Virus record (IMG/VR): IMGVR_UViG_3300042446_001218
Location: 1 to 42,016 of that record
Source: a virus
Length of the DNA: 42,016 nucleotides
Direction: 5' to 3' (one strand)
Shown piece after piece: positions 529 through 28,658 of this stretch. Numbering within the stretch: the first letter of the stretch is position 1; each line of letters starts with the position of its first letter. The translations under genes were made by a program, and so were the position numbers. The notes under the pieces are model-generated. The model worked only from the letters and a program-made list of their open reading frames with translations, had not been told where the DNA came from and did not search any database.

Positions 529-565
529 CATTATTATATAACGCAAAACGCTTAGTTTTTGCCAT
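529..565 (-). promoter_or_regulatory. Promoter-like element, copy 1
   Basis: Read on the minus strand, this 37-nt block begins ATGGCAAAAAC and continues with GTTTTGCGTTATATA. A near-identical block lies at 5594-5630. It sits between the terminator at 568-600 and the start of the gene at 508, where a promoter is expected, and includes a TATAAT-like hexamer. I do not see a matching -35 hexamer at the usual spacing, so a phage-specific promoter or regulator site is possible. Confidence 0.55.
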
Positions 566-567
566 GT

Positions 568-600
568 AAAAAAAAGGGCCCAGATTTCTCTGGACCCTTT
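568..600 (-). terminator. Intrinsic terminator of the ubiquitin-like operon
   Basis: On the minus strand a 12-bp stem (AAAGGGTCCAGA paired with TCTGGGCCCTTT, one G-U pair) closes a GAAA tetraloop and runs into an eight-base U tract. It begins five bases past the stop of the JAMM protease gene. This is a textbook factor-independent terminator and marks the end of the operon. Confidence 0.93.
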
Positions 601-604
601 AGAA

Positions 605-1909
605 TTACTTAGTCATCTCTTCGATAAAGAGTACATTAAACAATCTTGCAAAGTGTCCTGCTAATGCAAATGCATGAGAGGAGTTTGCATTCTCAGTCTT
701 GAGCCCTAATTGTTTCCACGCATTATTCCACGCCACATTATCGTTTTCGATAGCGCGGATTAGTGTTCTAATACTTGGATTATTCATAGACTCCTTACCA
801 TACTTGAGATTAAAGTCCTGAAGCAATTTATTATTTTTCTCAATAATTTCAAGATCACTGAGAGATTCAATTAGATCTCTAGATGAGAAATTTTGAAGCT
901 TAGGAATTTTATTACGAGCAGTAGCCACGATAATAAATGCTGCCATCAGCCCCATATGAAACTGATTGCGTAAAGCATTTATTACATTATTCTGTTGCCC
1001 AGCGTTCGTCTGATTCCCCCCAGTCGAGGGATAGTGACCGCTTTGAGTTACAGTTCCCACGCTTGGAGGTAACCCCCCTGTGCCTCCCATTCCCAGATTT
1101 CTTCCCACCCAGTATTGGGTGGGCTGGTACTTTTTTTCAGTTACACGAGCCTTCCACTCATCGGGGAATGGAAGTTCTACGTCAAAACCAATACCAGTAA
1201 TATACCGCTTCATTGCTGCGTCGATATATTCCTTTGGCATCTCTTTAAAGTGAGCATCGAGATGGGGAACCTCGATGAACGATAAGATAGAGATAGGAGC
1301 AAGATCCATCATTTTCTTTAGGATCTTAGCTTCTGAGGGAAATGGCTTACCAGGCTCAATAAGGCTCATATCTCCATTGAAGATAGCACTTACACGAGCA
1401 TGAATAGACATATCCTTCTGACCAAGATTACCCAGTGTGAAATGGATACCTTGCTGATTTTCCTCGTCATGCTTATCTGTGCCTGATTGAAACGCAGAAG
1501 TATTAACGTGGTTGTGAGTAGTACCATGGAACCCACCAATATCAATCCCGTGCTGCTCTTCGAGACTGCGTAGAAGTTCTTGGTTCTCTGGTGTCTGAAG
1601 ATCAATCTTAATTGTCATTCCGCTCACCGTCTGATGGAATGGCAAAGTAATGAATTGCTTATCTTTAGTAATGAAGTGACTAAGATGAGTCTCCTGCTTA
1701 AATGTCTTGTAAGACCAGCGATGAAAACCAACGACTTGAAGCCATTGTTCATATGGAAACTTAGGAATGTCACTTAGTAGTCCTGGAGCAGAAACTCTTT
1801 CAATTTGCAAACGTTGAGCGATCTCATTAGGATCAGCAATTTCGCTTACAGAGAAGAATGAGTTCTTTCTCATGGATACAATTTGTCCTGCGTCAGTAAT
1901 TGCAATCAT
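605..1909 (-). CDS. JAMM/JAB-family metalloprotease (PRTRC-A/deubiquitinase-like)
   Basis: This 434-residue protein carries a complete JAMM zinc motif: H132-x-H134 followed by seven residues, S142, two residues and D145 (HNHVNTSAFQSGTD). The following GIHFTLG and SIHARV strands resemble the segment after the motif in JAB proteins of PRTRC-type cassettes. JAB enzymes cleave isopeptide or peptide bonds after ubiquitin-like domains; here the likely role is to process the tandem Ubl or remove it from targets. The metalloprotease core occupies roughly residues 50-180. A Gly/Asn/Gln-rich linker (about 272-310) leads to a helical C-terminal domain I do not recognise. The catalytic Glu upstream cannot be assigned with certainty. 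The start overlaps the preceding gene's stop as ATGA, and a strong terminator follows. The motif is certain; substrate and role are inferred. Confidence 0.85.
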   Translation of the reverse strand: MIAITDAGQIVSMRKNSFFSVSEIADPNEIAQRLQIERVSAPGLLSDIPKFPYEQWLQVVGFHRWSYKTFKQETHLSHFITKDKQFITLPFHQTVSGMTIKIDLQTPENQELLRSLEEQHGIDIGGFHGTTHNHVNTSAFQSGTDKHDEENQQGIHFTLGNLGQKDMSIHARVSAIFNGDMSLIEPGKPFPSEAKILKKMMDLAPISILSFIEVPHLDAHFKEMPKEYIDAAMKRYITGIGFDVELPFPDEWKARVTEKKYQPTQYWVGRNLGMGGTGGLPPSVGTVTQSGHYPSTGGNQTNAGQQNNVINALRNQFHMGLMAAFIIVATARNKIPKLQNFSSRDLIESLSDLEIIEKNNKLLQDFNLKYGKESMNNPSIRTLIRAIENDNVAWNNAWKQLGLKTENANSSHAFALAGHFARLFNVLFIEEMTK

Positions 1910-2826
1910 GGAATTTCGATAATATAGATATCAGAGTTGTTTGTTGGTTCTTTAGCGAAATCGCTTTCTTTAGGTACATATGTAAGTTTATCTTCAACCT
2001 CACGGAAAGATTCCATGCGCGTTGCGAAATCTACGTCAGTAAGACCTGTATCGTAAATATCAATTGCTCTGTCCATAACACCAATACTGATCTTCTTATT
2101 ACTAAGTAGATCATCGACAATTACTTCAGGATTTGCGGATTTACCAGAAATAACTGTAGGAACTTCCGCTTCTGTAATATCCCATGATTCAATAGGAGCA
2201 CGGAGACAGTAGTTTACAGATTCAGTAAAACGCTCTTTGAGTGTAGTATCATTTACCGCATAGAAACCATGTACAGCAACTGCATATTGACCTGGAAGCA
2301 ATAATCCCTTAGTAACCATAGAACGACTACGCTCTACAGTTCCCATAAACGCACGGAAGAAGTGATGTCCCTGGGCTTGTACCAATGGCATAATGTTTAC
2401 AACAATGTAACCAGTCTTTCCATCAAGCTTGGCAACATTATTTTTGTAAACAGAAGTCATATGAGAGAACCCGAGGTATGGTGTTTCTCCATCAATATTG
2501 ATAACAAGCTTCCTAGATACATTCGAACATGGTAGTGTTACGGTAATGTTATTCTTAAGAGTTGCATCAAGATACTTCTTGTAAACGCCTACTATAAATT
2601 GCGGAATAGTAATACCGCCATTTGTAATCTTTTGAACTTCTCTTTCAATATAAATATCTTTAACACAGTCAGGTCTAGTTGAGCTAGAGAAGAAGTCATT
2701 ATCGTATAGACGATTAAGCGTACGTGTAGAAGTAGCTCCTACAAGTAGATTTTTAACTTCTTGAATCTTAGCCTCAAGAGGAGTACCTTCGATCAAATTT
2801 TGAGGTGGAGCGGTTTGTTCAGACAT
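1906..2826 (-). CDS. Unknown 306-residue protein of the ubiquitin-like operon
   Basis: I do not recognise this family. The protein is soluble, with a helical N-terminus (about residues 10-75), a beta-rich centre containing VTLPCSN and KLVINIDGETPYLGF, and an acidic C-terminal third. No signal peptide, membrane segment or nucleotide-binding loop is visible. It is locked between the E1-like gene (8-base overlap) and the JAMM protease gene (4-base overlap), so it is almost certainly co-translated with them and should act in the same pathway. It could be a target adaptor, an accessory conjugation factor or the substrate; the sequence does not decide. Its Cys residues, for example in TLPCSN and VNYCLRAP, are possible thioester sites but fit no known motif. 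Confidence 0.85.
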   Translation of the reverse strand: MSEQTAPPQNLIEGTPLEAKIQEVKNLLVGATSTRTLNRLYDNDFFSSSTRPDCVKDIYIEREVQKITNGGITIPQFIVGVYKKYLDATLKNNITVTLPCSNVSRKLVINIDGETPYLGFSHMTSVYKNNVAKLDGKTGYIVVNIMPLVQAQGHHFFRAFMGTVERSRSMVTKGLLLPGQYAVAVHGFYAVNDTTLKERFTESVNYCLRAPIESWDITEAEVPTVISGKSANPEVIVDDLLSNKKISIGVMDRAIDIYDTGLTDVDFATRMESFREVEDKLTYVPKESDFAKEPTNNSDIYIIEIP

Positions 2827-3505
2827 CTGTAGATTGTGAGTCTTGCTCTAGTTGATAAAATGTTTTTGTAAAAATTGTATTATTATTTCCAATTACTTTA
2901 GCCGTAACATGTTCCTCGTGCTCAAACGAAGTATTCATTAGACTATGTAGAATTGCCAATACAAAACCAGCGGCTACTGTATTTGCTAAAGCTGTTTGCA
3001 CATTTGCTTCAGCAGATTCACCAATCTCACCAGTACAAGCTCTCGATGGGTCCCGACCATCTGGCTTAATATTAGCGTAAACAAATGGATCCAGTAGACT
3101 GTCTTTGAATTTAGGCAGATATAAATATGCTTGAGGATCATACTCCTCATTCATACCCATGATCATAGGAACATAGAGCTGATCACTGAATTGCTTTGCA
3201 GTGATTCTAGCGTCATTGTTATCCACAGCTACAATGAGAAGATCACCTTCGCAGATGGATTTCTCGTTGAGATATGTTGGATCAAAGGTAACTTCATTCT
3301 TTGCCCAGGGTTCTACAGTTTCTGCAATAACCTCGGCTTTATTTTTACCAATGTTACCATTGGCGTAGTGCTGTCGTGTAATATTCTTCTCCTCATATTT
3401 GTCTCCGTCGAAAATATGAACAGGTGCGATGTTGGTTAGGGCGTGAACAAGGTGAGTCGTAAGACCCCCTGCGCCGATCAAAATAATGCGTTTCGGTTTC
3501 ATCAT
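2819..3505 (-). CDS. E1/ThiF/MoeB-like Ubl-activating enzyme
   Basis: This 228-residue Rossmann-fold protein has the E1-superfamily signature: nucleotide-binding loop GAGG (residues 11-14) after a beta strand, an acidic pair in FDGDKYEEKNITRQ (D33, D35, N41, R44, Q45), the G-K-x-K segment at 53-56, and VAVDNNDAR (D95, R100). Family members adenylate the C-terminus of ubiquitin-like or ThiS/MoaD proteins, usually passing it to a Cys. C157 in RACTGE is the candidate. The protein is compact, with no rhodanese or extra domains, like the ThiF of PRTRC cassettes. Two Met codons stand at the start; the first overlaps the stop of the upstream 35-residue ORF (ATGA). The neighbours supply a Ubl, an E2-like protein and a JAMM protease, which supports protein conjugation over cofactor sulfuration. 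Confidence 0.88.
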   Translation of the reverse strand: MMKPKRIILIGAGGLTTHLVHALTNIAPVHIFDGDKYEEKNITRQHYANGNIGKNKAEVIAETVEPWAKNEVTFDPTYLNEKSICEGDLLIVAVDNNDARITAKQFSDQLYVPMIMGMNEEYDPQAYLYLPKFKDSLLDPFVYANIKPDGRDPSRACTGEIGESAEANVQTALANTVAAGFVLAILHSLMNTSFEHEEHVTAKVIGNNNTIFTKTFYQLEQDSQSTDV

Positions 3506-3609
3506 TTTTTAATTTTGCGTGTTATGATATCCATCAATCTACCACTAATGGCATTTGAGGATGTACTATTCCTGACCAGGGCTTTAGCCTTTTCGATTAC
3601 TTGTTTCAT
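3502..3609 (-). CDS. Small basic 35-residue protein, coupled micro-gene
   Basis: A 36-codon ORF (MKQVIEKAKALVRNSTSSNA..., ending TRKIKK) fills the gap between the E2-like and E1-like genes. Its ATG overlaps the upstream TGA (ATGA at 3609-3606), and its own TGA overlaps the ATG of the E1-like gene (ATGA at 3505-3502). Two exact coupling overlaps are hard to explain by chance and argue that it is translated. The peptide is basic, has two amphipathic helical segments and lacks Cys. I do not recognise it; an accessory subunit that bridges E1 and E2 is only a guess. It may also serve mainly to couple translation. Confidence 0.7.
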   Translation of the reverse strand: MKQVIEKAKALVRNSTSSNAISGRLMDIITRKIKK

Positions 3610-4511
3610 TCGTTAAACTTTACGAGGTCGTCCCAGATTGGAGGCAGGGACATGTTTACTAAATTTGCTTCAAAATTTTGACCTGGCACTAATTTAAATA
3701 GTGGCATAGTTTTCTGATCAGCACCGCCAAGATACTCAGCATATACTTCATTCATATTCTCTTTCTCTAGGTCTGAATTAGAGGGTGCATGTACGAGGTC
3801 ATGGAACAAAGCACTAGGGCTCTGATTAAATGGATTTCTACGAAGAGCTACAGAAGAGGTATTTGAAAAACACCAGTCACCATGATCGTGCATGTTGTGA
3901 ACAGGAAGCTTGTATAGCTTTGGTATCTTGTCCAGAACAACACCGACAGTACTAAGTTTAACACTAATACCATCTTGATCGAAGTTAAGTTTGGTTCCAT
4001 TCTCATGCTTGAAACGTACAATATTTAGAAAGCCAGACCAACCGAAGTCAGAGGCCTTCAAGCAACATTCCACATTAGGCAGAACTCCAGTCTTTGGAAC
4101 AGCATCTCCGTATTTAATAATATCTCCTCGATTACCGGATCTCGTAAGTTCATCTACGTATGCTCTACCAGTCAATAATTTGAATTTAACTTGTCCGTCT
4201 CCAATTACTGGATACACGCACTCATTAAGGAAAAGATAATTAGTAAGGGTATAAACACTAACGATGTTTTGCGAAAAGCGCCACATCGAAGTCTGGTACT
4301 TAATATGTTCTGTAAGAATATCAGGACCTGGCATCTGACCACGCATTCTAGAAATAAATGTCGGCTCTCCAGAGAAAATATCATCAGGGGTGATAGTTTC
4401 TGGATTCTCCATAGTCAGGGTAAAGACTTTTGGACCATCAGGAGTTGGTAATATAATTGCGCCTCTAACTGGAATGCTATCGGCGGTTGGTGTGATTGGT
4501 GTTGTTGACAT
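3606..4511 (-). CDS. E2-like protein resembling PRTRC-B
   Basis: This 301-residue protein contains LPVHNMHDHGDWCFSN (residues about 202-217, Cys at 214). That resembles the catalytic stretch of the PRTRC-B family, where a Pro/Asn-containing strand leads through an acidic-Gly turn to a Cys. PRTRC-B proteins have been proposed to be E2-like conjugating proteins. A later HDLVHAPSN segment (about 227-235) is in the right place for the family's second conserved block. C149/C150 in NVECC are alternative reactive cysteines. It follows the Ubl gene after a hairpin terminator and is followed by the coupled micro-gene and E1. The assignment rests on motif resemblance plus context, so it is less sure than E1 or JAMM. 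No SD is present before the ATG. Confidence 0.6.
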   Translation of the reverse strand: MSTTPITPTADSIPVRGAIILPTPDGPKVFTLTMENPETITPDDIFSGEPTFISRMRGQMPGPDILTEHIKYQTSMWRFSQNIVSVYTLTNYLFLNECVYPVIGDGQVKFKLLTGRAYVDELTRSGNRGDIIKYGDAVPKTGVLPNVECCLKASDFGWSGFLNIVRFKHENGTKLNFDQDGISVKLSTVGVVLDKIPKLYKLPVHNMHDHGDWCFSNTSSVALRRNPFNQSPSALFHDLVHAPSNSDLEKENMNEVYAEYLGGADQKTMPLFKLVPGQNFEANLVNMSLPPIWDDLVKFNE

Positions 4512-4520
4512 AGAGGTAAT

Positions 4521-4557
4521 AAAATGAAAACCAGTGGGCGGATATACCGCCCACTGG
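4521..4557 (-). terminator. Intra-operon hairpin terminator between Ubl and E2-like genes
   Basis: On the minus strand CCAGTGGGCGG pairs perfectly with CCGCCCACTGG around a TATAT loop, and is followed by TTTTCATTTTATT. This is an 11-bp GC-rich stem with a U-rich tail. It lies after the Ubl stop and before the E2-like start, so partial termination here would leave the Ubl more abundant than its enzymes. Confidence 0.8.
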
Positions 4558-4584
4558 TGCGAATAATTAGTTAACTATATGCAG

Positions 4585-5022
4585 TTACGCAGCCTTTTGT
4601 GAAGTGGCTTGAGAGAACTCAATCACGTCACCAGCGCTAAGCGTAGCTTCGTTGGATTTGGAACCACCGTTGACTTTTACAACAGTGTTTGCACCCAAAC
4701 CAAGGGCAGCACGGTAGTCAGCATCTGCGAGAAGCTGGCTAGCGGTCTTTGCCGAATCAAGGGAGAAAGCTTGAGTCTGGCCATTAGCACGAACGCTGAT
4801 GGTGTAGACTGCAGCTTTTTGACTAGTTGCTTGGTAGAACTCTACCACGTCGTTATGCTGCAAGACATAGCTGTCTGCAGCCTCCGTACCGTTAACGCGA
4901 ACTTTGGTGTTAGCGTTGACGCCATATGCGGGGCCGTGGCTGGATTTGAAGCTAGCGACGGTTGGAGGAGTGGTGATAACTGCGGATTGAGTGGCACCAT
5001 TAGCTTTAACTTGAACGATCAT
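4585..5022 (-). CDS. Tandem ubiquitin-like (ThiS/MoaD/PRTRC-C-type beta-grasp) protein
   Basis: The 145-residue protein is an internal duplication: residues 1-71 and 72-145 each run from a strand (VQVKANG; ISVRANG) through a helix and a V-x-VNG turn to a final strand (NDVVEFYQATSQKAA; GDVIEFSQATSQKAA). That order and the V-x-VNG...GD-V-E-F pattern match the ThiS/MoaD beta-grasp. Both halves end in the identical ATSQKAA. From memory, PRTRC-C proteins end in a comparable F-x-R-A-x-G-x-K-G tail. The final AA is the C-terminus of the protein, so it needs no trimming; the inner copy would need cleavage after A71, a job for the neighbouring JAMM protease. The usual Gly-Gly is replaced by Ala-Ala. 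An E1-like and an E2-like gene follow. Fold and duplication are clear; the conjugation role is inferred. Confidence 0.8.
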   Translation of the reverse strand: MIVQVKANGATQSAVITTPPTVASFKSSHGPAYGVNANTKVRVNGTEAADSYVLQHNDVVEFYQATSQKAAVYTISVRANGQTQAFSLDSAKTASQLLADADYRAALGLGANTVVKVNGGSKSNEATLSAGDVIEFSQATSQKAA

Positions 5023-5046
5023 ATAATGTATGTGTTTGTGTGTTTA

Positions 5047-5301
5047 TTAGGTCTTGATGTAGGTACACAGAAAATAGACCTGATCTCTTCGTGAACCATT
5101 TCTTGGTACTGCTGTCACAGTGACAGTAGAACCTTTTTTAATCATCTTTAGTCGCGGAACCAATTTGGAATAAGCGACTAGTTTAATTTGAACGTCTGGG
5201 GCAGTGGCTTCTGTCTTTTTCAACAAAATCCACATTTCTAAGCCGGGACCACTATTAGTAGAAAACAGAGACACCTCCAGACAAGTACCGGTGATGTCCA
5301 T
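5047..5301 (-). CDS. Small hypothetical protein, 84 aa
   Basis: Beta-rich small protein beginning MDITGTCLEVSLFS with alternating hydrophobic strands and a basic RNGSRRDQ segment near the C-terminus. The pattern could suit an OB-like or other small barrel, but I see no diagnostic motif. It is the second gene of the ubiquitin-like operon, six bases after the 68-residue gene and 24 bases before the Ubl gene. That suggests a role in, or co-regulation with, the conjugation system. Confidence 0.72.
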   Translation of the reverse strand: MDITGTCLEVSLFSTNSGPGLEMWILLKKTEATAPDVQIKLVAYSKLVPRLKMIKKGSTVTVTAVPRNGSRRDQVYFLCTYIKT

Positions 5302-5307
5302 ACTAAT

Positions 5308-5514
5308 TTAGAAATCGACTCCAGTTAGCATAATTTCATTGTCAGAAGTTATGACGGAAATAACTTCAAACTCTTCAGGATAATCATAAGCGAATTCATC
5401 ACACAAAGATTCAAGTAGTACAATGATGCTTTTTTTAGAAACACCTTTCACACTACGAATAACATATTTTGAATCGTCTACTAGATCTTCGGGAAGTTTA
5501 ATTATAGCTTGCAT
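5308..5514 (-). CDS. Small hypothetical protein, 68 aa
   Basis: First gene of the ubiquitin-like operon. It begins MQAIIKLPEDLVDDSKYVIR, has a central amphipathic helix (SKKSIIVLLESLCDEF) and ends in two strands. Overall it is acidic. A small alpha/beta regulator or a degenerate beta-grasp domain are both possible; neither is shown. It follows a 115-base leader holding a promoter-like element and an inverted repeat. The ATG has an A-rich upstream tract (AGAAAAA) and no SD. Confidence 0.7.
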   Translation of the reverse strand: MQAIIKLPEDLVDDSKYVIRSVKGVSKKSIIVLLESLCDEFAYDYPEEFEVISVITSDNEIMLTGVDF

Positions 5515-5561
5515 TTTTTCTATATATGAGGTTGAGCAGTTTCACATATAAAAGAAGTCGA

Positions 5562-5593
5562 ACCAGATATTTAGTTTAGCTAATATATCTGGT
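5562..5593. promoter_or_regulatory. Inverted repeat in the leader of the ubiquitin-like operon
   Basis: ACCAGATAT and ATATCTGGT form perfect 9-base arms, with an inner TTAG/CTAA pair, between the promoter-like element (5594-5630) and the first start codon (5514). As DNA it could be a repressor operator; as RNA it is a leader hairpin. No long U tract follows on the minus strand, which makes a strong terminator unlikely. Confidence 0.55.
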
Positions 5594-5630
5594 CAATTCT
5601 ATATAACACAAAACAGCTCGTTTTTGCCAT
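5594..5630 (-). promoter_or_regulatory. Promoter-like element, copy 2
   Basis: On the minus strand this block begins ATGGCAAAAAC and continues with GTTTTGTGTTATATA, matching the element at 529-565 at about 30 of 37 positions. It touches the stop codon of the upstream gene (5630-6109) and lies directly upstream of the ubiquitin-like operon. Two copies, each at the head of a transcription unit, support a shared phage promoter or activator site. Confidence 0.6.
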
Positions 5631-6145: not shown

Positions 6146-6604
6146 TTAAAGAATGATAGACTTTCCTTCTGATGGAACCATAAATGCTGCTGGAAATTCT
6201 GGGTGTCCTGCTCTGTAATGTTTTACTTTCTTTGCAGTCTTCCATAGATCTTCATAGTCACTATCTTCTAGGGATATAATTTCAGCTAAGGTTTCCATTC
6301 CATAACCTTGATAATTTTGTACTTTTGGAAATGCTTCTTCAGGTACATTGTTTTTTAATCTTACCCAATGATTCCAAAGAGCCATTGCTTTATATGCAAC
6401 CTTATTGGGATCGTTATGATAAAGAAAGATTTCATCTACGTAGTCGAGAGAACTTTGAATAATAGACATTTTAACAGGTAGTCTAACTACAAAAGGATAA
6501 CACATACGTACTAGGTTACCTTCTTTATCGTAAGCCATTTTCTCTTTTAGATCTAGATATGACTGACCTTTATTCTTTTCTGTTTTTACTTTGTGTAGAC
6601 TCAT
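6146..6604 (-). CDS. Hypothetical protein, 152 aa
   Basis: Soluble mixed protein with a basic N-terminus and a Trp/Tyr-containing core (MALWNHWVRLKNN, KVQNYQGYGMETLAEII). No motif is recognised. Its first 35 bases overlap the end of the DUF1064-type nuclease gene in another frame, so the two are probably co-translated. Position between the nuclease and the portal-region genes suggests a late or DNA-processing role; this is context only. Confidence 0.75.
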   Translation of the reverse strand: MSLHKVKTEKNKGQSYLDLKEKMAYDKEGNLVRMCYPFVVRLPVKMSIIQSSLDYVDEIFLYHNDPNKVAYKAMALWNHWVRLKNNVPEEAFPKVQNYQGYGMETLAEIISLEDSDYEDLWKTAKKVKHYRAGHPEFPAAFMVPSEGKSIIL

Positions 6605-7073
6605 TTTGTTGTTTAATAATTTCGATAAGATCTTTAATCTGTTTTTTAGTTTTAGGCAAGTATAAAGTTTTATTAAATTTATAAGTAAACATTTTTTGTT
6701 TTAATTTAAACACAGGATCTATCATTCCTTTAATGTCTACTACAACTACTTGCTCTGGTATTTTTTTAGTAAACTCTGTTTTATTAGTATTAAAAGCAAA
6801 GTCTGCTACATAATAAATAGGTCTTATCTTTGAACCATCTGGATCTATGTATCCTGGTTGTAATAAAAACTTTGGCTGTATAACAAACTTGCGAGTACCG
6901 AATGCTTCCTTGAATAATAGGTAAGCATCTTTTTCAATCATGGAATCAAATGTAATTCCATCGGCTTGTCTTTTGCTAGACTCAGCAACTGTAATTCTAC
7001 CTTTAGCCTTAGGCATATAATCTTCTATGCCTAAGCTATTTAGGATTTTTTCAAACTCATGATTTTTCTGCAT
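6570..7073 (-). CDS. DUF1064-like PD-(D/E)XK nuclease
   Basis: The 167-residue protein follows the DUF1064 phage nuclease pattern: FDSMIEKDAYLLF (E47), the QPKFLLQPGY strand (Q66), YYVADFAF (D91) and VVVVDIKGMIDPVFKLKQKMF (D113, K115). E47, D91 and D113-x-K115 match the PD-(D/E)XK catalytic set. Members are small phage endonucleases, some annotated as Holliday-junction resolvase-like. A role in resolving branched DNA before packaging would fit its place next to the portal-region genes, but the substrate is not shown. Confidence 0.8.
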   Translation of the reverse strand: MQKNHEFEKILNSLGIEDYMPKAKGRITVAESSKRQADGITFDSMIEKDAYLLFKEAFGTRKFVIQPKFLLQPGYIDPDGSKIRPIYYVADFAFNTNKTEFTKKIPEQVVVVDIKGMIDPVFKLKQKMFTYKFNKTLYLPKTKKQIKDLIEIIKQQNESTQSKNRKE

Positions 7074-13645: not shown

Positions 13646-14866
13646 TTAATCAGGTAGTTTAATTATTTTACTTGCTGCTTGTTCGGGATTTAGGTATTCG
13701 TATTGTCCTGTTCTTCTATTTAAGAACATTTGATACAATCTACCATCAGATCCTATTTTGACGCCTTTTGTTAGGCGAGCGTCAACGCCGATTCGTTCAC
13801 TGTTACCAGCCCACCATGATACTCCTTCGTTTTCACGAACGAGTAGTGATGCGCCAGGAACAGCTGCACAGAAAACTTCTCCCTCAAAAGGAATTAATTC
13901 AGAGTTGAATACTGCATTAGGAAACAATACAGTACCTTGATCGGATTCTCTTTCAGATAAGGTATAAAATTCAGAGTCCAATAATTCATGAGCTAGGTAA
14001 ATTTTTACATTGTGACCAAATAAAGAATCATTATCAGTACTATAGATTCTATGATTCCTTGTTACGGTTAAGTAGTCATTCTGTTGTGTCCAAAACCTAA
14101 TCAGGTTTCCAGTGTACTTCTCTTTAGTGAGCCTATATGCTTTTGCAAAATGACGATAGAATCCAGATCCTAAACATAGGAACTCATGGTCTTCGTTAAT
14201 TTGATCCCATCGTACCCAACCTGCGTTAGTAAATACTTCTACATTACCTGGGAAGCACTCAGGCCCTTCTAGTCCAGATAAGAATCCAAACTGACCAGGA
14301 GTAACACTCTGCATTGATTCCGTAATAGAATCAGAACTTTGAATACCACCTTCTCCTAGTTGGGTTACACGTCGAGCATTTTCCAAGAGGTGAATAGGAT
14401 TAATCTCTTCCAATGGAGAGCTTAATGGATTACCAATAAGTTGCTTCTCTCCATATGAGTCAAAATAAAACGGAGTAAGGAATGATAGATTCTTTCTATA
14501 TGATGCAGCAGCAAGTAACTTCTTTCTCACTCCCGTACCATCGTTACGAATTCTTTCGGAGAGTTGTTTATTAACTGGAAACATCTTCTTAAACATTAGG
14601 TCATCCCTATTGTCAGTTTCTTCCAGTCCTTTGTTTACGTTAAGAAGTTTTTGCGATGAACTAAGCAAGCCGCTAACACCAAAGGAAACATAAGGTTCTT
14701 CAGAGGCATCGTAATCATAGGATACGGACTTACTAAAATCATCAGAGAGTTGAGTCTTATCTCTTTTATCCTCTAATTCATCATCAGCCTCTTCTACAGC
14801 TGAAGACTTTTTTAATTCCTCAAATTGTACAAATTTTAAAATTCTGTTAAAAAGATCTTCACTCAT
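13646..14866 (-). CDS. RNA polymerase beta-subunit middle fragment, interrupted by a mini-intein
   Basis: The extein parts align with the core of bacterial RpoB. QKLLNVNKGLEETDNRDDL resembles the KLLxLNxGxGxxDxxDxL segment. NPLSSPLEEINPIHLLENARR then LGEGG corresponds to the NPLxExxHKRRxSxLGPGG fork region. VTPGQFGFLSGLEGPE joined to SERIGVDARL corresponds to [22 protein letters not shown]. A 152-residue intein (C204-N355) splits that last motif. Removal leaves a 254-residue fragment ending shortly after it (IIKLPD). The C-terminal half of beta, with the nucleotide-binding residues, is absent from the window. The gene overlaps the beta N-terminal gene by eight bases. Split beta subunits are known for phiKZ-like and AR9-like phages. 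The first 60 residues are acidic and without RpoB similarity. Confidence 0.82.
   Translation of the reverse strand: MSEDLFNRILKFVQFEELKKSSAVEEADDELEDKRDKTQLSDDFSKSVSYDYDASEEPYVSFGVSGLLSSSQKLLNVNKGLEETDNRDDLMFKKMFPVNKQLSERIRNDGTGVRKKLLAAASYRKNLSFLTPFYFDSYGEKQLIGNPLSSPLEEINPIHLLENARRVTQLGEGGIQSSDSITESMQSVTPGQFGFLSGLEGPECFPGNVEVFTNAGWVRWDQINEDHEFLCLGSGFYRHFAKAYRLTKEKYTGNLIRFWTQQNDYLTVTRNHRIYSTDNDSLFGHNVKIYLAHELLDSEFYTLSERESDQGTVLFPNAVFNSELIPFEGEVFCAAVPGASLLVRENEGVSWWAGNSERIGVDARLTKGVKIGSDGRLYQMFLNRRTGQYEYLNPEQAASKIIKLPD
13802..14257 (-). mobile_element. Mini-intein in the RNA polymerase beta fragment
   Basis: Protein residues 204-355 of the host ORF. Block A begins with catalytic C204 (CFPGNVEVFTNAGWVRWDQI), block B has TVTRNHRIYS with the T-x-x-H pattern (H272), and block F is FEGEVFCAAVPGASLLVREN. 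The C-terminal end is WWAGN355 followed by Ser356 as the first extein residue. The usual penultimate His is Gly. With only about 55 residues between blocks B and F there is no homing endonuclease, so this is a splicing-only intein. The insertion point is the most conserved motif of the subunit. Confidence 0.87.
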
Positions 14867-16139
14867 GTCTCATTGCTTCTAAAATTTCCATAAAATTATT
14901 TCCAGTAAACCCTGCGCTTTTTAGTAGAGTATCATTTGCATGGATTTCGTCAATATAATCTTTAGTTTTATTAAGAAGTAAATCAAAAGATTCACTCTCC
15001 ATATCATGTGCAATATTAACTCCCCAAGAACAAGCAGATAAAAATACCTCGGGTTCTTTTGCTAGGCTATTAAAATGTGCTGCTGCTTTTCTCCAAGTTA
15101 GTTTATTCTCTTCATCTAATGGACTAGTAATACCTTCGTTAAATGAATTGTACCAAGAGATCCATTTTAATTGAGCAGGAAGAATAACATCCGAATCTTC
15201 ACTAGCTGATTTAACAATATTTTCCAATTCTGGTTTATCGCTGAAATAATAATCCAAACAATCACTAGGAGATAACTGAGGAGCAAACTCTGGTAGCATA
15301 GCATCATTTACAATTTGCTTTGCTTGAATGGATGCTCTTTTCTCCAAATCAAATTTCATAGGAAGGTTTCTACGAACTACTCTTTCGTGTACCTGTGCCT
15401 TCTCAAAGAAGTTTCTAAGGAGCTCACCTTTATTAGGATTCTCTCCTGCTAGTTTCTTTTGGAAGTTAGGAACGATCTTATCATATGCTCTATTAATCGT
15501 AGAAGCATCATATTTAGACGCATTAATATTGTACAACTCTTCTCCCCAATTGTCTTTAATCTCTTCATCAGGAATACCCATATCTTTCATTAGAGAGAAT
15601 AGGTGTAGATTAGAGTTTTTAATCTTCAAAGAATACTGTCCCGTTTCTGCTTCAAGACCAATACGAAATGAACTACCCGTACCAGGTCTTGTATTCACCT
15701 GAGTTTCCAAGTTACCGTTCTCTTGTCGTCTAGTATAAACTCCAGGAATCAAGCGACTCTGCATTAGACTTCCATAGTCATTACCCCCATGAATAAATGT
15801 ACCGCGATCTGTAAGGTATGGTACGCGCATGAGAGTTGTTTCTTTTTCATCTAGAAGTTCTCCATTAAGATCATATAGACTAACTTTACCACGTAGCTTT
15901 CTACCTAGGTATTGATCTTTAGCCAAAGCTTCTTTTTCATACTTCTTAGTAAAGGTTGGAGGATCTGCGTAGTTCAAATCTGATACTCGCATTACTACAT
16001 TACCATACTTTTGAGGAAAGCTTTTCTCGACAGCAGAAAGTGTGTCGTTGTAGATGTCGTCTCTAAGAGTAGCGAAATCTTCTGGATCTCTCAACCTAAC
16101 GTCCTTAGGTTCTACAATTTTTGCATTTAGATTTAGCAT
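14859..16139 (-). CDS. RNA polymerase beta-subunit N-terminal fragment
   Basis: Residues about 104-137 carry the RpoB signature: VPYLTDRGTFIHGGNDYG followed by SRLIPGVYTRR, matching the PLMTDxGTFxxNGxERVxVxQLxRSPGV region, followed by segments in the place of the beta lobe. At 426 residues it corresponds to roughly the first third of a bacterial beta subunit. The next gene continues the subunit, so the protein is split between two ORFs overlapping by eight bases. It opens a transcription unit: a terminator for the preceding genes and a palindrome lie within 80 bases upstream. KRAS, KSAS and KSAG motifs like those of nearby virion proteins occur in the C-terminal half, so a virion-packaged polymerase is possible but unproven. 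No SD precedes the ATG. Confidence 0.84.
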   Translation of the reverse strand: MLNLNAKIVEPKDVRLRDPEDFATLRDDIYNDTLSAVEKSFPQKYGNVVMRVSDLNYADPPTFTKKYEKEALAKDQYLGRKLRGKVSLYDLNGELLDEKETTLMRVPYLTDRGTFIHGGNDYGSLMQSRLIPGVYTRRQENGNLETQVNTRPGTGSSFRIGLEAETGQYSLKIKNSNLHLFSLMKDMGIPDEEIKDNWGEELYNINASKYDASTINRAYDKIVPNFQKKLAGENPNKGELLRNFFEKAQVHERVVRRNLPMKFDLEKRASIQAKQIVNDAMLPEFAPQLSPSDCLDYYFSDKPELENIVKSASEDSDVILPAQLKWISWYNSFNEGITSPLDEENKLTWRKAAAHFNSLAKEPEVFLSACSWGVNIAHDMESESFDLLLNKTKDYIDEIHANDTLLKSAGFTGNNFMEILEAMRHE

Positions 16140-25268: not shown

Positions 25269-26435
25269 TTATATAATTCCTAGTAGTTTCTGTTCGTGTT
25301 CCGAACGACGCTTGTCAGTCCAGCGGAAAACGAACTCCGTGTCAATAGGGTAATACATTTTTCTTTCATTGTATTCCCATTCATTATTTTCAGCCATGTA
25401 TAGCTGATGTAACTGTGCCACTAAATTACGTTCTTCAATAGGACACACAGTTACCAATGCGTCATAAAGACATATCATAACTCTAGCTTTCATACCTAAA
25501 GCTTTATACGCCTCTATTAACCATATGCAAGCTCTCATGGCAGTAGCCCCAACTGATTCCTGCATAGGAAAGTTCCTAGCCTCTCGACCCTGACTCGACA
25601 TAAGAGTTTTTCTTTCTTTGAATCCAAGACTTTTATCATTGGTTCCAACAAAGTGTCTACGTCTTCCAGAAGCAGCCGTAATGAATGGATACATAGAGGG
25701 AAGCATTTGTTGCTCCTCTAAGTATTCTACAGCGCGTCCTTGTCTTGTTTCGAGAGCTTTAAATATTCTATCTCCAGTTCCAGGCTCTGGTAGTACTCCA
25801 GAGTCTGCATAAATTTTTCTTTCAAGTGTAGAAGGCGTTGCTCCGTACGAAGTGGAGAAGTTACCCACCTTACCCATACCATCTCTATGCATTTTCTTGT
25901 CTAGAGATTCTCTGGGTACTTCATACATGAATTCTACTAGTGACCAGTGAAGATCATGAGACGGATGTCTTAGATTTCCTTCTGAGTCTCGGAGTAGTTC
26001 GCCTTCTTCTACTTTTCTAATAATCTTATTACTCTTAGCCAAATGCATAATGAAATCTTCACGGCGATTCTGCTCAGGAATACCGCAGTTTTCATCATAA
26101 CTTAGTCTTACTGGTGTTGCCTCGTCCTCTACCAATACTAATCCAAATTGCTTATCAGATTCCGTCATCAAGCGTATTAGATTAACATCTCCAGAAATGA
26201 AAGCTAACGCTCTAATCTCTGCAGTGGCATAGTCAGACTCAACCATACAAGATCCGTCAGGTGATTTTACACAAGAACGAATACTTGGAATAGGAGTATG
26301 TAGATATTTTTCCAGGTTTTCTGGTAGTTCTGATTTATCAAAACACTCCTGGAGAATCTCTTTGATATCTTTAGTAATACGTCCTTGTACATAGCTAGGC
26401 CAGTTGAGTACATTTGGCTTCCATGCTCTAGGTCT
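25269..26435 (-). CDS. polA: UDG-PolA DNA polymerase, exon 2
   Basis: Exon 2 encodes 388 residues starting RPRAWKPNVLNWPSYVQGR, which continues the TG-R-x5-PNLxNxP motif begun in exon 1. Motif A is ESDYATAEIRALAF. Motif B resembles GKVGNFSTSYG. Motif C reads CLYDALVTV, with Tyr-Asp-Ala in place of His-Asp-Glu. SQGREARNFPMQESVGA resembles the nearby ARxxxNxPxQ segment. This forms the palm and fingers of a family A polymerase. An in-frame TTG at 26447 inside the intron gives a stand-alone ORF but is not the real start. Total spliced protein length is 649+388=1037 residues. MazG follows. Confidence 0.9.
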   Translation of the reverse strand, partial: RPRAWKPNVLNWPSYVQGRITKDIKEILQECFDKSELPENLEKYLHTPIPSIRSCVKSPDGSCMVESDYATAEIRALAFISGDVNLIRLMTESDKQFGLVLVEDEATPVRLSYDENCGIPEQNRREDFIMHLAKSNKIIRKVEEGELLRDSEGNLRHPSHDLHWSLVEFMYEVPRESLDKKMHRDGMGKVGNFSTSYGATPSTLERKIYADSGVLPEPGTGDRIFKALETRQGRAVEYLEEQQMLPSMYPFITAASGRRRHFVGTNDKSLGFKERKTLMSSQGREARNFPMQESVGATAMRACIWLIEAYKALGMKARVMICLYDALVTVCPIEERNLVAQLHQLYMAENNEWEYNERKMYYPIDTEFVFRWTDKRRSEHEQKLLGII

Positions 26436-26711
26436 CGTTGTGTTCAAATAGGGTCGTTAATCCTATCCAGCTTTCGCGTCTGCAAGTTATGAATTCCTTG
26501 CAGTCCAGACTATATCATCATCTATTAAAGATGCCTCCCGTTTCGCTTTACTTAAAGCTACGCCTTTCGGCTAGTCGTTGAACCTTCCCTTTCGGGCTTG
26601 GCTGCTGATTGAGATCTTTCGAACCTTTCCAGCAATTAAAGAGGTTCCTGTTTATTGTCACCAATAAAAGGGGCTAATTTTTGTTGTAACAACTTACAAC
26701 AAATTTTTTTT
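26436..26711 (-). ncRNA. Group I self-splicing intron in the DNA polymerase gene
   Basis: The 276-nt insertion carries group I core features on the minus strand: AAACAGGAACCTCTTTAATT near the 5' part, a CAACGACTAGCC helix, the P7-type segment GATATAGTCTGG (26516-26505), a P8-like ATC/GAT hairpin and a 3' end TTAACGACC...TTTGAACA that closely matches the T4 td intron 3' end. It ends in G. Splicing joins ACTGGT (Thr-Gly) to AGA (Arg), restoring the polymerase motif TGR exactly. There is no room for a homing endonuclease. An early 10-bp hairpin (TTTGTTGTAA/TTACAACAAA) likely extends P1. The internal guide pairing I find is short (GGU with GCC). Confidence 0.9.
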
Positions 26712-28658
26712 ACCAGTTTCTGTACTACTAAAATTTGGACGAATATATCCATCTTTATCAATAAAGAAGAATAGACCATTCTCCTTAACGACGTTACCTT
26801 CGTCATCTACTTCCGCTGGTTTTAAACACATCTTAAATATGTTACCAACCAAGTTTAATCCAACAAGTCTTGCCACTAATGGATCTTGGTCTGCATAGAT
26901 ATTAAGTGTTTGTTTATCCGCACTAGGAGTATACAGCTTCTGTTGTTCTGCTGGCATTTGCAAAACTTTATCCCATGAAGTACTTGGTCTACCTTTATCC
27001 TTTTGTGGAGTAGATTTGAAAGGCTTGAACTGTTTAACATCAAATAACCATCTACGCATATCATCTCCAGATCTGAAGTTGAAATGTTCTCTATGGTCAT
27101 AATGTTTTAACAAAGCAGATACACGCTCAACTGTTTCTCCTTTTAGTTCAGCAATAACTTCTTTAGGTAGCTTAAGTGCATCCTCAAATGGAAGATTAGT
27201 AGATGCTAGAAACTCTCTCATGATAGTATCCGCATCCGTAGCCATAAGTTCAACAAACTTATACTCTAATCTCTCTTTGCAGAATCCGTACAACTCTCTT
27301 AGTTCTTGAAGTTTAGCAACATCAATCAGAAGTCCAGTTGTAGTGAAATGAATGAATACATCTGTTACGAATTTATTAAAGTAATTGAAATAGTAGTCCG
27401 TCAGATTCTGCTCTCTCAATTCCTCAACAAGAAATGGTACTGCACGAATAACACAGTCCACATCCTTCATAGCATACGGAAACATAATCTCATCAGGAAT
27501 AAATGCATACCCATCATTATCTTTCTGAGGATTAGATTTCTTCCATAAAATAAGATCCATTTCATAACGACCCAAATCTGTATATCTCATAGCAATAGAT
27601 TCCAAGCCTAACTCGCGGTGCTCATTCACGGTTTGACTAGCGAACTCTGTATCGAGATAGCATTTCTGATAAGTATCAATTTTAAGGACTTGCTCCATCC
27701 AAACTCCGTCAGCGGCGAAGTGATGTCCTACAAATTTAACTTCTGGTCTATCTAACTGCTTTCTTAGAATATCACCGACTTCTTCATAGCCCACATCAAA
27801 TGTATAGTTACCTTTATCATCCATGAAACGTATGTAACATGCTTGACCAGGAGCCCACGCCATTTGCAGAGATCTTAGATTACCTTTCCAAGGATTAAGT
27901 CCTCCCCACTCACAGTCAATGGATATAAGATTAAATTGATTATTATACAAGTAATCTACTACCTCTTTTAGCTCATTAGAGTTGTAGATTACTTTGTAAT
28001 TTAACTCAACCGCGTTACGAGAAATACCATATGTCTCTTTAAGTAGAGTAATGGATTCCTTCATGCAGATCTTATATTTCTCAATCTCGAATGGTTTGTT
28101 CTGAAGTACTTGAATTGGATCTAGCAGGGTGTAATAACAGGAGTATTCTTTTGACCAGAATACACCTCCTAGAATATCATCTGCTTTAAGTGTGTATGGA
28201 GAAAGGAAATCAAATGCTGCTTTTCCTAGACATAGTACAAGCTTAGGTTTAATCTTCTCAATCTCCTTAGCAAAGAACTGAAACCCAAAGTTTAGTTCTT
28301 CCTTTGTTGGTCTATTTCTTCTTTCTTTAGGAAGAAGCCATTTAATAATTGCTGTTGTGTAGATGTTACTACCCTCAATTCCGTAAGAGTTAATTAGATC
28401 TTTAATAGCCGCCCCTGCTTGACATTTAAGAAATGCAGGAGGATCTTTTAGAATTTTATTGTACGCTCCCAAGACACCATCCCTGGCATCCTCTTCATAC
28501 AAACAAGGCATTAACACCATACAATCAGCAGAAACTCTTCCCTTGCCTCCTACATACGTAATTCCGTCTACGATAGCAGATTTCCAAATCTCGGGATGCT
28601 CTCCTTCAAGATTTGGTTGAGGTGGGTTGTCAGGTAATTCTACTTTTTTGGTGTACAT
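26712..28658 (-). CDS. polA: UDG-PolA DNA polymerase, exon 1 (glycosylase-like and exonuclease domains)
   Basis: Exon 1 encodes 649 residues. Residues about 30-210 resemble a family 4/5 uracil-DNA glycosylase: SNIYTTAIIKWLLPKERRNR then PTKEEL and IKPKLVLCLGKAAFDFL; the usual GExPG motif is degraded. Residues about 225-435 are a 3'-5' exonuclease: SIDCEWGG (D248, E250), GHHFAADGVW and YAMKDVDCV. The polymerase thumb follows and the exon ends within the GYIRPNFSSTETG motif. A similar UDG-like/PolA arrangement with a group I intron is known for SPO1-type phage polymerases. Without splicing the frame runs five codons into the intron and stops. It follows the acidic 157-residue gene by six bases. 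Confidence 0.9.

Follow-up and report, generated by a model that had tools for sequence, protein, structure and literature searches.

A phage-borne gene cassette that probably encodes a ubiquitin-like conjugation cycle, and its relatives in uncultivated viruses

The window analysed here, 42,016 nt of the IMG/VR virus record IMGVR_UViG_3300042446_001218 (positions 1 to 42,016), carries on its minus strand (nt 605–5022) genes for a tandem beta-grasp ubiquitin-like protein (Ubl), an E2-like protein, a ThiF/E1 protein and a JAMM peptidase. Together, these very likely form a self-contained, phage-encoded ubiquitin-like conjugation cycle. What the sequences show is the presence of the components with their catalytic motifs, co-inheritance of the genes and a Lys-Ala/Gly tail with variable extensions. 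Dozens of further uncultivated phages also carry the cassette. This distribution suggests that a small protein tag is attached to other proteins by a sizeable group of phages. The features of the unit are as follows.

5600–5627, minus strand: 28-bp promoter-like element (GCAAAAACnnnnnGTTTTGyGTTATATA) upstream of the cassette, its function assigned from position
5308–5514, minus strand: 68-aa ORF, first gene of the unit; no homologue found
5047–5301, minus strand: 84-aa ORF; no homologue found
4585–5022, minus strand: tandem ubiquitin-like (beta-grasp) precursor, 145 aa (Pfam ThiS, leave-window-out HMM, tail alignment)
4530–4558, minus strand: terminator-like hairpin between the Ubl and E2 genes (-29.1 kcal/mol, z -7.25)
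3606–4511, minus strand: E2-like protein, 301 aa, family D-like (leave-window-out HMM); Cys214 codon at about 3870–3872
3502–3609, minus strand: 35-aa ORF, with 4-bp overlaps with E2 and E1
2819–3505, minus strand: E1/ThiF-like adenylyltransferase, 228 aa (Pfam ThiF, leave-window-out HMM)
1906–2826, minus strand: 306-aa protein between E1 and JAMM, in the slot of family g3 of other type I cassettes
605–1909, minus strand: JAMM metallopeptidase, 434 aa (NCBIfam PRTRC_A, leave-window-out HMM, motif)
573–600, minus strand: intrinsic terminator after JAMM (12-bp stem, -20 kcal/mol, z -3.9, then a T run)
535–562, minus strand: the 28-bp element again, here preceding the next gene, which is truncated

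All ORFs named in an earlier, sequence-only reading of this DNA were found at the position and on the strand it gave, and the order of the core genes is Ubl-E2-E1-JAMM. That reading described a single operon of overlapping or nearly overlapping genes bounded by a promoter-like element and a terminator; consistent with this, every gene junction from E2 to JAMM overlaps by 4–8 bp, and the cassette is flanked by the repeated 28-bp element on one side and the strong terminator on the other. The element has two exact matches in the window (0.01 expected). Because of the strong hairpin at nt 4530–4558, transcription of the Ubl gene may exceed that of the enzyme genes. An internal terminator at this place is not claimed as a family-wide feature, as perfect stems were seen in just 9/56 cassettes.

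The catalytic motifs previously proposed for the E1, the JAMM protein and the E2 (Cys214) can be read directly in the translations. In the E1 these are G11-A-G-G14, D33-G-D35, N41-I-T-R-Q45 and V94-D95...R100. This protein matches Pfam ThiF over the cut-off (2e-13), and its best NCBIfam match is PRTRC_ThiF (1e-11; 44.6 of 144.75 bits, under the curated cut-off). Cys157 is the candidate catalytic cysteine; the corresponding motif is present in 88/91 single-E1 cassettes, and two of the three exceptions are truncated. The JAMM motif (H132-x-H134-x7-S142-x2-D145 plus E73) is kept in every aligned relative ungapped at those positions, and the protein is matched by NCBIfam PRTRC_A at 2.3e-4 (20.8 of 101.8 bits, under the curated cut-off). 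A PADLOC match to Csm2 in the C-terminal part of the JAMM protein (1.7e-5) was judged a likely chance helical similarity. ThiS is the sole Pfam match over cut-off for the Ubl (2.4e-6), and a profile search of the PDB gave 11 matches, mostly ubiquitin/MoaD/SAMP-like, each only at E 0.02–0.7. When HMMs built from other loci only were run on the 152 window ORFs, each of the four matched solely its right ORF: the Ubl at 1.5e-23 (two domains), the E2 at 6.1e-6 (aa 197–269), the E1 at 4.7e-41 and the JAMM at 1e-46.

Public viral contigs contain 77 complete distinct cassettes, the window included, in three gene orders, of which the order of the window is the commonest (55/77; type I). The number of viral stretches confirmed by JAMM scanning alone is 187. 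Single-protein scans of viral contigs with the window E1, JAMM and 306-aa protein gave no relatives; these were recovered by profile scans only. Among 50,697 GenBank phages, three of the JAMM proteins had no tblastn match. Searching with the window E1 turned up a gut contig that carries a JAMM-ThiF pair and a phage with an E1 only. The distances of E1, E2 and JAMM track each other (Mantel r 0.79–0.92 versus at most 0.20 in shuffles), a signal that is inflated by shared ancestry.

In several phage groups the cassette neighbours are recombination or replication genes. RecT occurs in 6/49 records, and the same six have the RecT family (g24) beside the cassette; DNA polymerase A is among the neighbours (a family of 36 loci), and the window has a resolvase gene. 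These neighbours hint at a role of the cassette in recombination or replication. Its targets might, speculatively, lie in phage DNA replication/recombination, or among the host proteins that meet it. The earlier idea that the tag goes onto host or virion proteins received no support, and nothing points to virion proteins.

The C-terminal tails of the Ubls follow a pattern across the family that escaped the sequence-only reading and goes beyond its claims. In the window, Ubl1 (aa 1–70) and Ubl2 (about aa 72–144) are 41% identical (E 5e-16), and both finish in ...ATSQK-A followed by A, with the invariant lysines at Lys69 and Lys143. A lysine near the end is invariant in 77/77 Ubl domains, and the next residue is Ala or Gly in 74/77, the exceptions being Lys-Gln or Lys-Asn in three Ubls (L005, L006, L082). 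The Lys-Ala tail is found in 49/55 type I cassettes and Lys-Gly in all 22 cassettes of the other two types. Downstream there are 0–30 variable residues, nothing, or a further Ubl copy. As far as the alignments tell, a Lys-Ala/Gly end followed by an extension or a Ubl copy is the layout of ubiquitin precursors, and for this reason the JAMM peptidase is probably the maturase of the tag. In many family Ubls the chain already stops at Lys-Ala or Lys-Gly, which would make maturation unnecessary in those cases.

A cycle can be proposed on this basis. The JAMM peptidase would trim or split the Ubl precursor right after Lys-Ala (Lys-Gly in sister lineages) to give the mature tag; in the window, the tandem ...QKA|A... 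would be split into two Ubls. The E1 would then adenylate the terminal Ala and probably load the tag onto Cys157, from where it would be handed to Cys214 of the E2-like protein. The E2, acting without a recognisable E3, would attach it to phage or host proteins, at lysines or at other nucleophiles, and the JAMM peptidase may also remove it. That a terminal Ala is usable by bacterial E1/E2 enzymes follows from type II CBASS, where cGAS, with Gly or Ala as its last residue, undergoes conjugation (PMC10097602). The tail pattern predicts JAMM maturation after Lys-Ala/Gly and an Ala-accepting E1. With a mature ...Lys-Ala end, the trypsin remnant on a target would be a single Ala (+71.04 Da), a one-residue remnant of the kind that standard Gly-Gly searches miss, and the mass-spectrometry signature suggested earlier (ATSQKAA-tailed branches) needs revision.

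The earlier proposal of a Ubl/E1/E2/JAMM set carried by the phage and comparable to PRTRC cassettes is supported. Among bacterial systems, those of the PRTRC type are closest to it, and profile comparisons show the E1, E2 and JAMM of the cassette to be distantly related to their counterparts in plasmid-borne PRTRC systems (type 6d operons in Iyer et al. 2006, PMC1779556). The reference loci from Dyella (L202), Novosphingobium (L203) and Methylomonas (L205) share with the cassette a PRTRC ThiF-type E1, a PRTRC A-type JAMM and a family D E2 with the same Cys motif; they also resemble it in having a stand-alone Ubl, with a ...KG tail (one with an extension of about 60 aa), and DNA-maintenance genes close by (ParB, SSB). 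The viral sets differ in being located in phage genomes, in their mostly Lys-Ala tail, in gene order and in scoring under the PRTRC cut-offs. The viral Ubl HMM did not match PRTRC C, and the window tail is ...QKAA rather than the terminal Gly of PRTRC C. The seven cassette proteins gave no NCBIfam matches to the companions ParB, E and F, those to A and ThiF being the only ones. In the E1 tree, the viral proteins form a clade separate from PRTRC ThiF (support 100/98). Plasmid sets of Bacillota (Alicyclobacillus L003, Cytobacillus L206, Metabacillus L207) likewise have adjoining family-D E2, JAMM and ThiF genes but in the order E2-JAMM-E1, and the viral Ubl family has no match there; unlike the viral cassette, Alicyclobacillus has a PRTRC-C-like Ub stretch fused to its JAMM. 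Lambdoid phages also encode a Ubl and a JAB domain, in TAPI and TAPK (Ubl, JAB-NlpC; PMC1779556), but these are tail-assembly genes without E1 or E2.

BilABCD, the bacterial ISG15-like antiphage system, is a comparable set of four parts, namely E1, E2, JAMM and a Ubl of two domains, which the JAMM processes (PMC11354881). It is, however, bacterial and antiviral, its E1 (BilD) is a larger pseudodimer as against a single 228-aa domain here, and the CEHH motif of BilB (PMC11354881) is absent, Cys214 being followed by FSNTSSVALRR. As a PADLOC search for Bil components gave no match either, membership was rejected. Type II CBASS (Cap2/Cap3) and Bub share the E1-E2 chemistry and reversal by a JAMM, and the CBASS tag ends in a single Gly/Ala, but in CBASS the tag is cGAS rather than a Ubl and E1 and E2 are fused; of the PADLOC E1-E2 models only the E1 part matches the window cassette. 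Membership was rejected, given the separate E1 and E2 ORFs and the lack of a recognised cGAS-like gene in the unit.

Since Bil and CBASS use the same chemistry in phage‒host conflict (PMC11354881, PMC10097602), the cassette could serve counter-defence or superinfection exclusion, by tagging host defence proteins or an incoming rival phage or by competing with host Bil/CBASS. This concerns the purpose rather than the chemistry and is compatible with a conjugation cycle. We consider it rather unlikely: PADLOC detected no Bil component, and the core of Ubl, E1, E2 and JAMM shows strong conservation even between distant phages and in several groups lies beside core replication genes, a pattern that differs from that of most variable counter-defence loci.

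The 301-aa protein might instead be a structural partner or substrate, with E1 and JAMM acting directly on the Ubl. It is very divergent, with similarity limited to about 70 aa around Cys214 and hardly any identity to PRTRC B. Structure prediction, another check named by the sequence-only reading, gave a mediocre AlphaFold model (mean pLDDT 60) that has no significant PDB match in Foldseek, where Ubc9 entries at E of about 2–4 were not counted as evidence, and the family profile found no match in the PDB by sequence. Shorter members of the family include E2s of 237 to 246 aa, for instance in L005 and L008. PRTRC B-like E2s have a conserved downstream His (PMC1779556); H241 lies downstream of the Cys in the window and is not conserved among viral relatives. 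Against this alternative, which appears improbable, Cys214 and Asn206 are invariant in 116/116 distinct aligned sequences, and a profile of the viral family recovers PRTRC-B/Prok-E2_D proteins at E 1e-3 to 3.5e-8, with an hhalign P of 2e-7 for the region around the Cys.

A sulfur-carrier pathway would use the Ubl as a thiocarboxylate donor (ThiS/MoaD/QbsE-CysO type) that is trimmed by JAMM and adenylated by E1, with the sulfur passing to a cofactor, tRNA or metabolite. The Pfam ThiS match fits such a role, as does the best solved-structure neighbour of the Ubl, a MoaD-family protein (E 0.02), and JAMM-trimmed C-terminal extensions are known from the sulfur carriers of the QbsE/QbsD and CysO/Mec pairs. 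Such pathways are without E2s, however, while complete cassettes include the E2-like protein with its invariant Cys. A cofactor pathway nearby, which the sequence-only reading had named as an argument against itself, was looked for: rhodanese is absent from all 49 viral records (window included) and desulfurase from the window, and the only Aminotran_5 match is weak and lies in a 527-kb record. CxxC zinc motifs are missing from the E1, and most type I members have a Lys-Ala mature end. Membership of the MoeB/ThiF sulfur-carrier systems was rejected on the missing sulfurtransferase/desulfurase partners and an end that is not Gly-Gly, and we regard the pathway as quite improbable. ATG8-like conjugation, with a membrane lipid or a nucleotide instead of a protein as acceptor of the Ubl, recalls the single C-terminal residue and lack of an E3 in ATG8, the ATG7 and UBA5 matches of the E1 profile and a possibility left open for cGAS (PMC10097602), but is highly improbable, no membrane-associated partner being recognised and the gene neighbours being DNA enzymes.

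The conjugation cycle thus remains the preferred reading. It is possible, though somewhat short of probable, that the cassettes represent a broad, previously undescribed and virus-specific Ubl family of uncultivated tailed phages, with its own precursor logic and a change of the reactive end from Gly to Ala in its largest branch, which tags proteins in DNA replication or recombination. Prokaryotic Ubl conjugation is known from plasmids (PRTRC) or as a bacterial anti-phage weapon (Bil, CBASS). This picture would be reversed by a full Ubl system that many phages carry and conserve, and the dozens of natural variants of such a system provide compact cascades for studying how the last-residue specificity of E1 and E2 evolves.

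The sequence-only reading had left the 68-, 84- and 306-aa genes and the 35-aa ORF unplaced, and no homology emerged for any of them. The 306-, 84-, 68- and 159-aa proteins showed none to the gap ORF families or to E1, E2, Ubl and JAMM, and none was detected between the 306-aa protein and family g3; an AlphaFold model of the 306-aa protein, made without homologues, was discarded (pLDDT 29.5). Pfam matches to 'Acetate_kinase' and 'IgGFc_binding' were under cut-off and disregarded. By position, the 35-aa ORF occupies the slot of a protein of about 110 aa in many other type I cassettes.

The 42-kb window is a virus record in its database, and since its ORFs include a UvsX-like recombinase, a DnaB-like helicase, a primase, a DNA polymerase, an SbcC-like protein and a Holliday junction resolvase, it represents a phage. 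The sequence-only reading had placed a ubiquitin-like protein (Ubl), an E2-like protein, an E1 (ThiF) and a JAMM protein in a single unit. This layout was confirmed: the gene order is as claimed, each junction from the E2 to the JAMM gene is a 4–8 bp overlap, and a promoter-like element and a terminator lie at the ends.

Features of the cassette unit
605–5022, minus strand: the cassette from the Ubl to the JAMM gene; the whole unit, which starts upstream of it, encodes, in transcription order, proteins of 68 aa, 84 aa, 145 aa (tandem Ubl), 301 aa (E2-like), 35 aa, 228 aa (E1), 306 aa and 434 aa (JAMM)
5600–5627 and 535–562, minus strand: 28-bp element, exact, two copies in the window (0.01 expected)
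4530–4558: strong hairpin with T-rich tail between the Ubl and E2 genes (z −7.3)
573–600: clear terminator at the end of the unit

Both copies of the 28-bp element stand where a transcription unit begins, the cassette unit starting directly after one of them, and the element is probably a phage-specific promoter. The strong hairpin separating the Ubl and E2 genes suggests that the Ubl tag may be produced in excess over the enzymes. The 306-aa protein, encoded between E1 and JAMM, has no detectable homology to g3, the family occupying this slot in other loci of the same gene order (e.g. L054:2945–3856, L005:2351–3388). Family g3 is conserved (26 sequences, often duplicated), shows a weak, below-threshold match to TSCPD, and is a candidate E3 or substrate adaptor.

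In curated libraries, the E1 matched Pfam ThiF (2e-13) and the Ubl ThiS (2.4e-6), the JAMM protein gave a weak PRTRC_A match (2.3e-4) under that model's cut-off, and the E2-like protein had no match. To avoid circular reasoning, HMMs for each part were trained on viral, phage and plasmid loci with the window left out, and searched against the 152 window ORFs. Each matched only the expected ORF (E1, 4.7e-41; JAMM, 1e-46; Ubl, 1.5e-23 with two domains; E2, 6.1e-6 over residues 197–269), which, with the Pfam matches, bears out the earlier Ubl, E1 and JAMM assignments. JAMM residues E73, H132, H134, S142 and D145 do not vary wherever aligned. The best solved structures for the E1 profile were SUMO E1, UBA5, MoeB and similar; those nearest the Ubl profile were almost all beta-grasp proteins, each a weak match (E 0.02–0.7). 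The E2-like claim stands in part: Asn206 and the proposed Cys214 are invariant in all 116 distinct sequences, and the viral profile matches PRTRC B and family-D E2 proteins (3.5e-8 to 1e-3; hhalign against the PRTRC-B profile, P 2e-7), but the AlphaFold model was mediocre and returned no significant structural match.

The cassette shows the parts and motifs of a Ubl cascade, and conjugation, on the working principle of other Ubl cascades, is the best reading of its chemistry. The Ubl would be matured by JAMM cleavage after Lys-Ala, adenylated by E1, then probably carried on E1 Cys157 (88 of the 91 cassettes with a single E1 have a Cys followed by a Q/N motif, and two of the remaining three are truncated) and passed to E2 Cys214 for conjugation; JAMM would also reverse the bond. 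A sulfur-carrier role is disfavoured, since complete cassettes contain the E2-like gene and the Ubl tail speaks against it. No sign of the nearby cofactor pathway that would have favoured this role was found: the 49 records searched have zero rhodanese and essentially no desulfurases.

A Lys, the one residue invariant across the Ubl alignment (77/77 domains), has Ala after it in 49 domains, Gly in 25, Gln in 2 and Asn in 1. Lys-Ala is found in 49 of 55 type I cassettes and Lys-Gly in all 22 of types II and III (gene orders are listed below). The protein stops at the residue next to the Lys in 26/55 type I and 12/19 type II cassettes, while others carry 1–30 further residues that are not conserved (A, V, C, SL, HG, VSLC, TEVLA, NELELVAA etc.) or run directly into another Ubl (the window and loci L072, L075, L088 and L130); each repeat in the window ends ATSQK-A-A. 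Eukaryotic ubiquitin/Ubl precursors share this arrangement, and it suggests that the reactive end is Lys-Ala or Lys-Gly. As plasmid PRTRC C proteins end in ...TKG (one with a ~60-residue extension), the Lys-Gly tail probably predates the phage family, with the Ala end derived. A terminal Ala is chemically credible, since conjugated cGAS of type II CBASS has a terminal Gly or Ala (PMC10097602).

Scanning IMG/VR with the JAMM profile led to 187 confirmed stretches of viral DNA, of which 80 were kept, and E1-profile scans added further loci. After removal of duplicates there were 99 loci with E1 and JAMM, including 77 complete cassettes.

Gene orders of complete cassettes
Type I: Ubl-E2-E1-JAMM, 55 (window included)
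Type II: E2-JAMM-E1-Ubl, 19
Type III: Ubl-E2-JAMM-E1, 3

In the E1 tree, PRTRC and plasmid E1s branch separately from those of the viral cassettes (100/98), and the window sits on a long branch within type I (100/100). Mantel correlations among E1, E2 and JAMM distances (r = 0.92, 0.79 and 0.87, against ≤0.20 in shuffles) are as would be expected of a jointly inherited module, with shared phage ancestry contributing. At least some carriers are tailed phages, as 16 of 48 records have terminase-like matches (8 above the curated cut-off). Three cassette JAMMs had zero matches among 50,697 GenBank phages. Bacterial loci recovered by the viral E1 profile, a scan with one degenerate pattern that does not prove absence from bacteria, were only E2-JAMM-E1 sets lacking the viral Ubl.

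The earlier comparison with PRTRC holds as relatedness, but not as membership, whether judged by curated thresholds, Ubl family or companions. It belongs to neither Bil nor CBASS. Iyer et al. (2006) reported operon type 6d in bacteria and, among lambdoid tail genes, a Ubl-JAB pair; their passages on these systems describe no phage E1-E2 cascade (PMC1779556). No complete phage-encoded cascade was found described in the open-access papers searched, a scope outside which subscription papers and preprints fall, so that priority is uncertain. The interest of the cassette lies in its breadth, its viral ownership and a testable Lys-Ala/Gly maturation rule.

The Holliday junction resolvase gene (6570–7073) lies slightly upstream of the unit in the window. 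Elsewhere, a DNA polymerase A family gene is found 3′ of JAMM in 36 loci, six of 49 records have RecT (in those same six, a RecT-family gene lies 3′ of JAMM within the locus), and in several large phages RNA polymerase beta′ or an AAA+ ATPase adjoins the cassette. These neighbours weakly suggest that it acts on replication, recombination or transcription proteins, though early-gene modules cluster such genes anyway.

Several loci depart from the basic layout. In L104, L107, L108, L110, L115, L116, L117 and L120, an additional E1-like gene, diverged in sequence, lies 3′ of the Ubl and close to a gene for RNA polymerase beta′; it lacks the GxGG motif and mostly the Cys motif, and by analogy with heterodimeric E1s it is possibly an inactive E1 partner. 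In the large phage contigs L139 and L142–L152, an AAA+ ATPase and two more E2 paralogues come after E2-JAMM-E1-Ubl; they could form an unfoldase set linked to the Ubl. Two E2-like paralogues stand in tandem in L014, L023 and L027, and Cys is retained in all four of those in L014 and L023. In the gut contig L001, the gene that comes next after a JAMM-ThiF pair (gene at 1679–2761) resembles a DNA polymerase sliding clamp by eye.

Elsewhere in the window, two adjoining minus-strand ORFs (13646–16139) appear by eye to be RNA polymerase beta pieces (RGTFIHGGNDYGSLMQSRLIPGVYTR; LEGPE...SERIGVDARLTKG). The second has an intein-like insert, starting CFPGNVEVFTNAGW and ending WWAGN, and a weak phrog_85 match overlaps this region. 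DNA polymerase A is apparently split on the minus strand (25269–28658) into ORFs 26694–28658 and 25269–26447, with a gap of ~245 bp.
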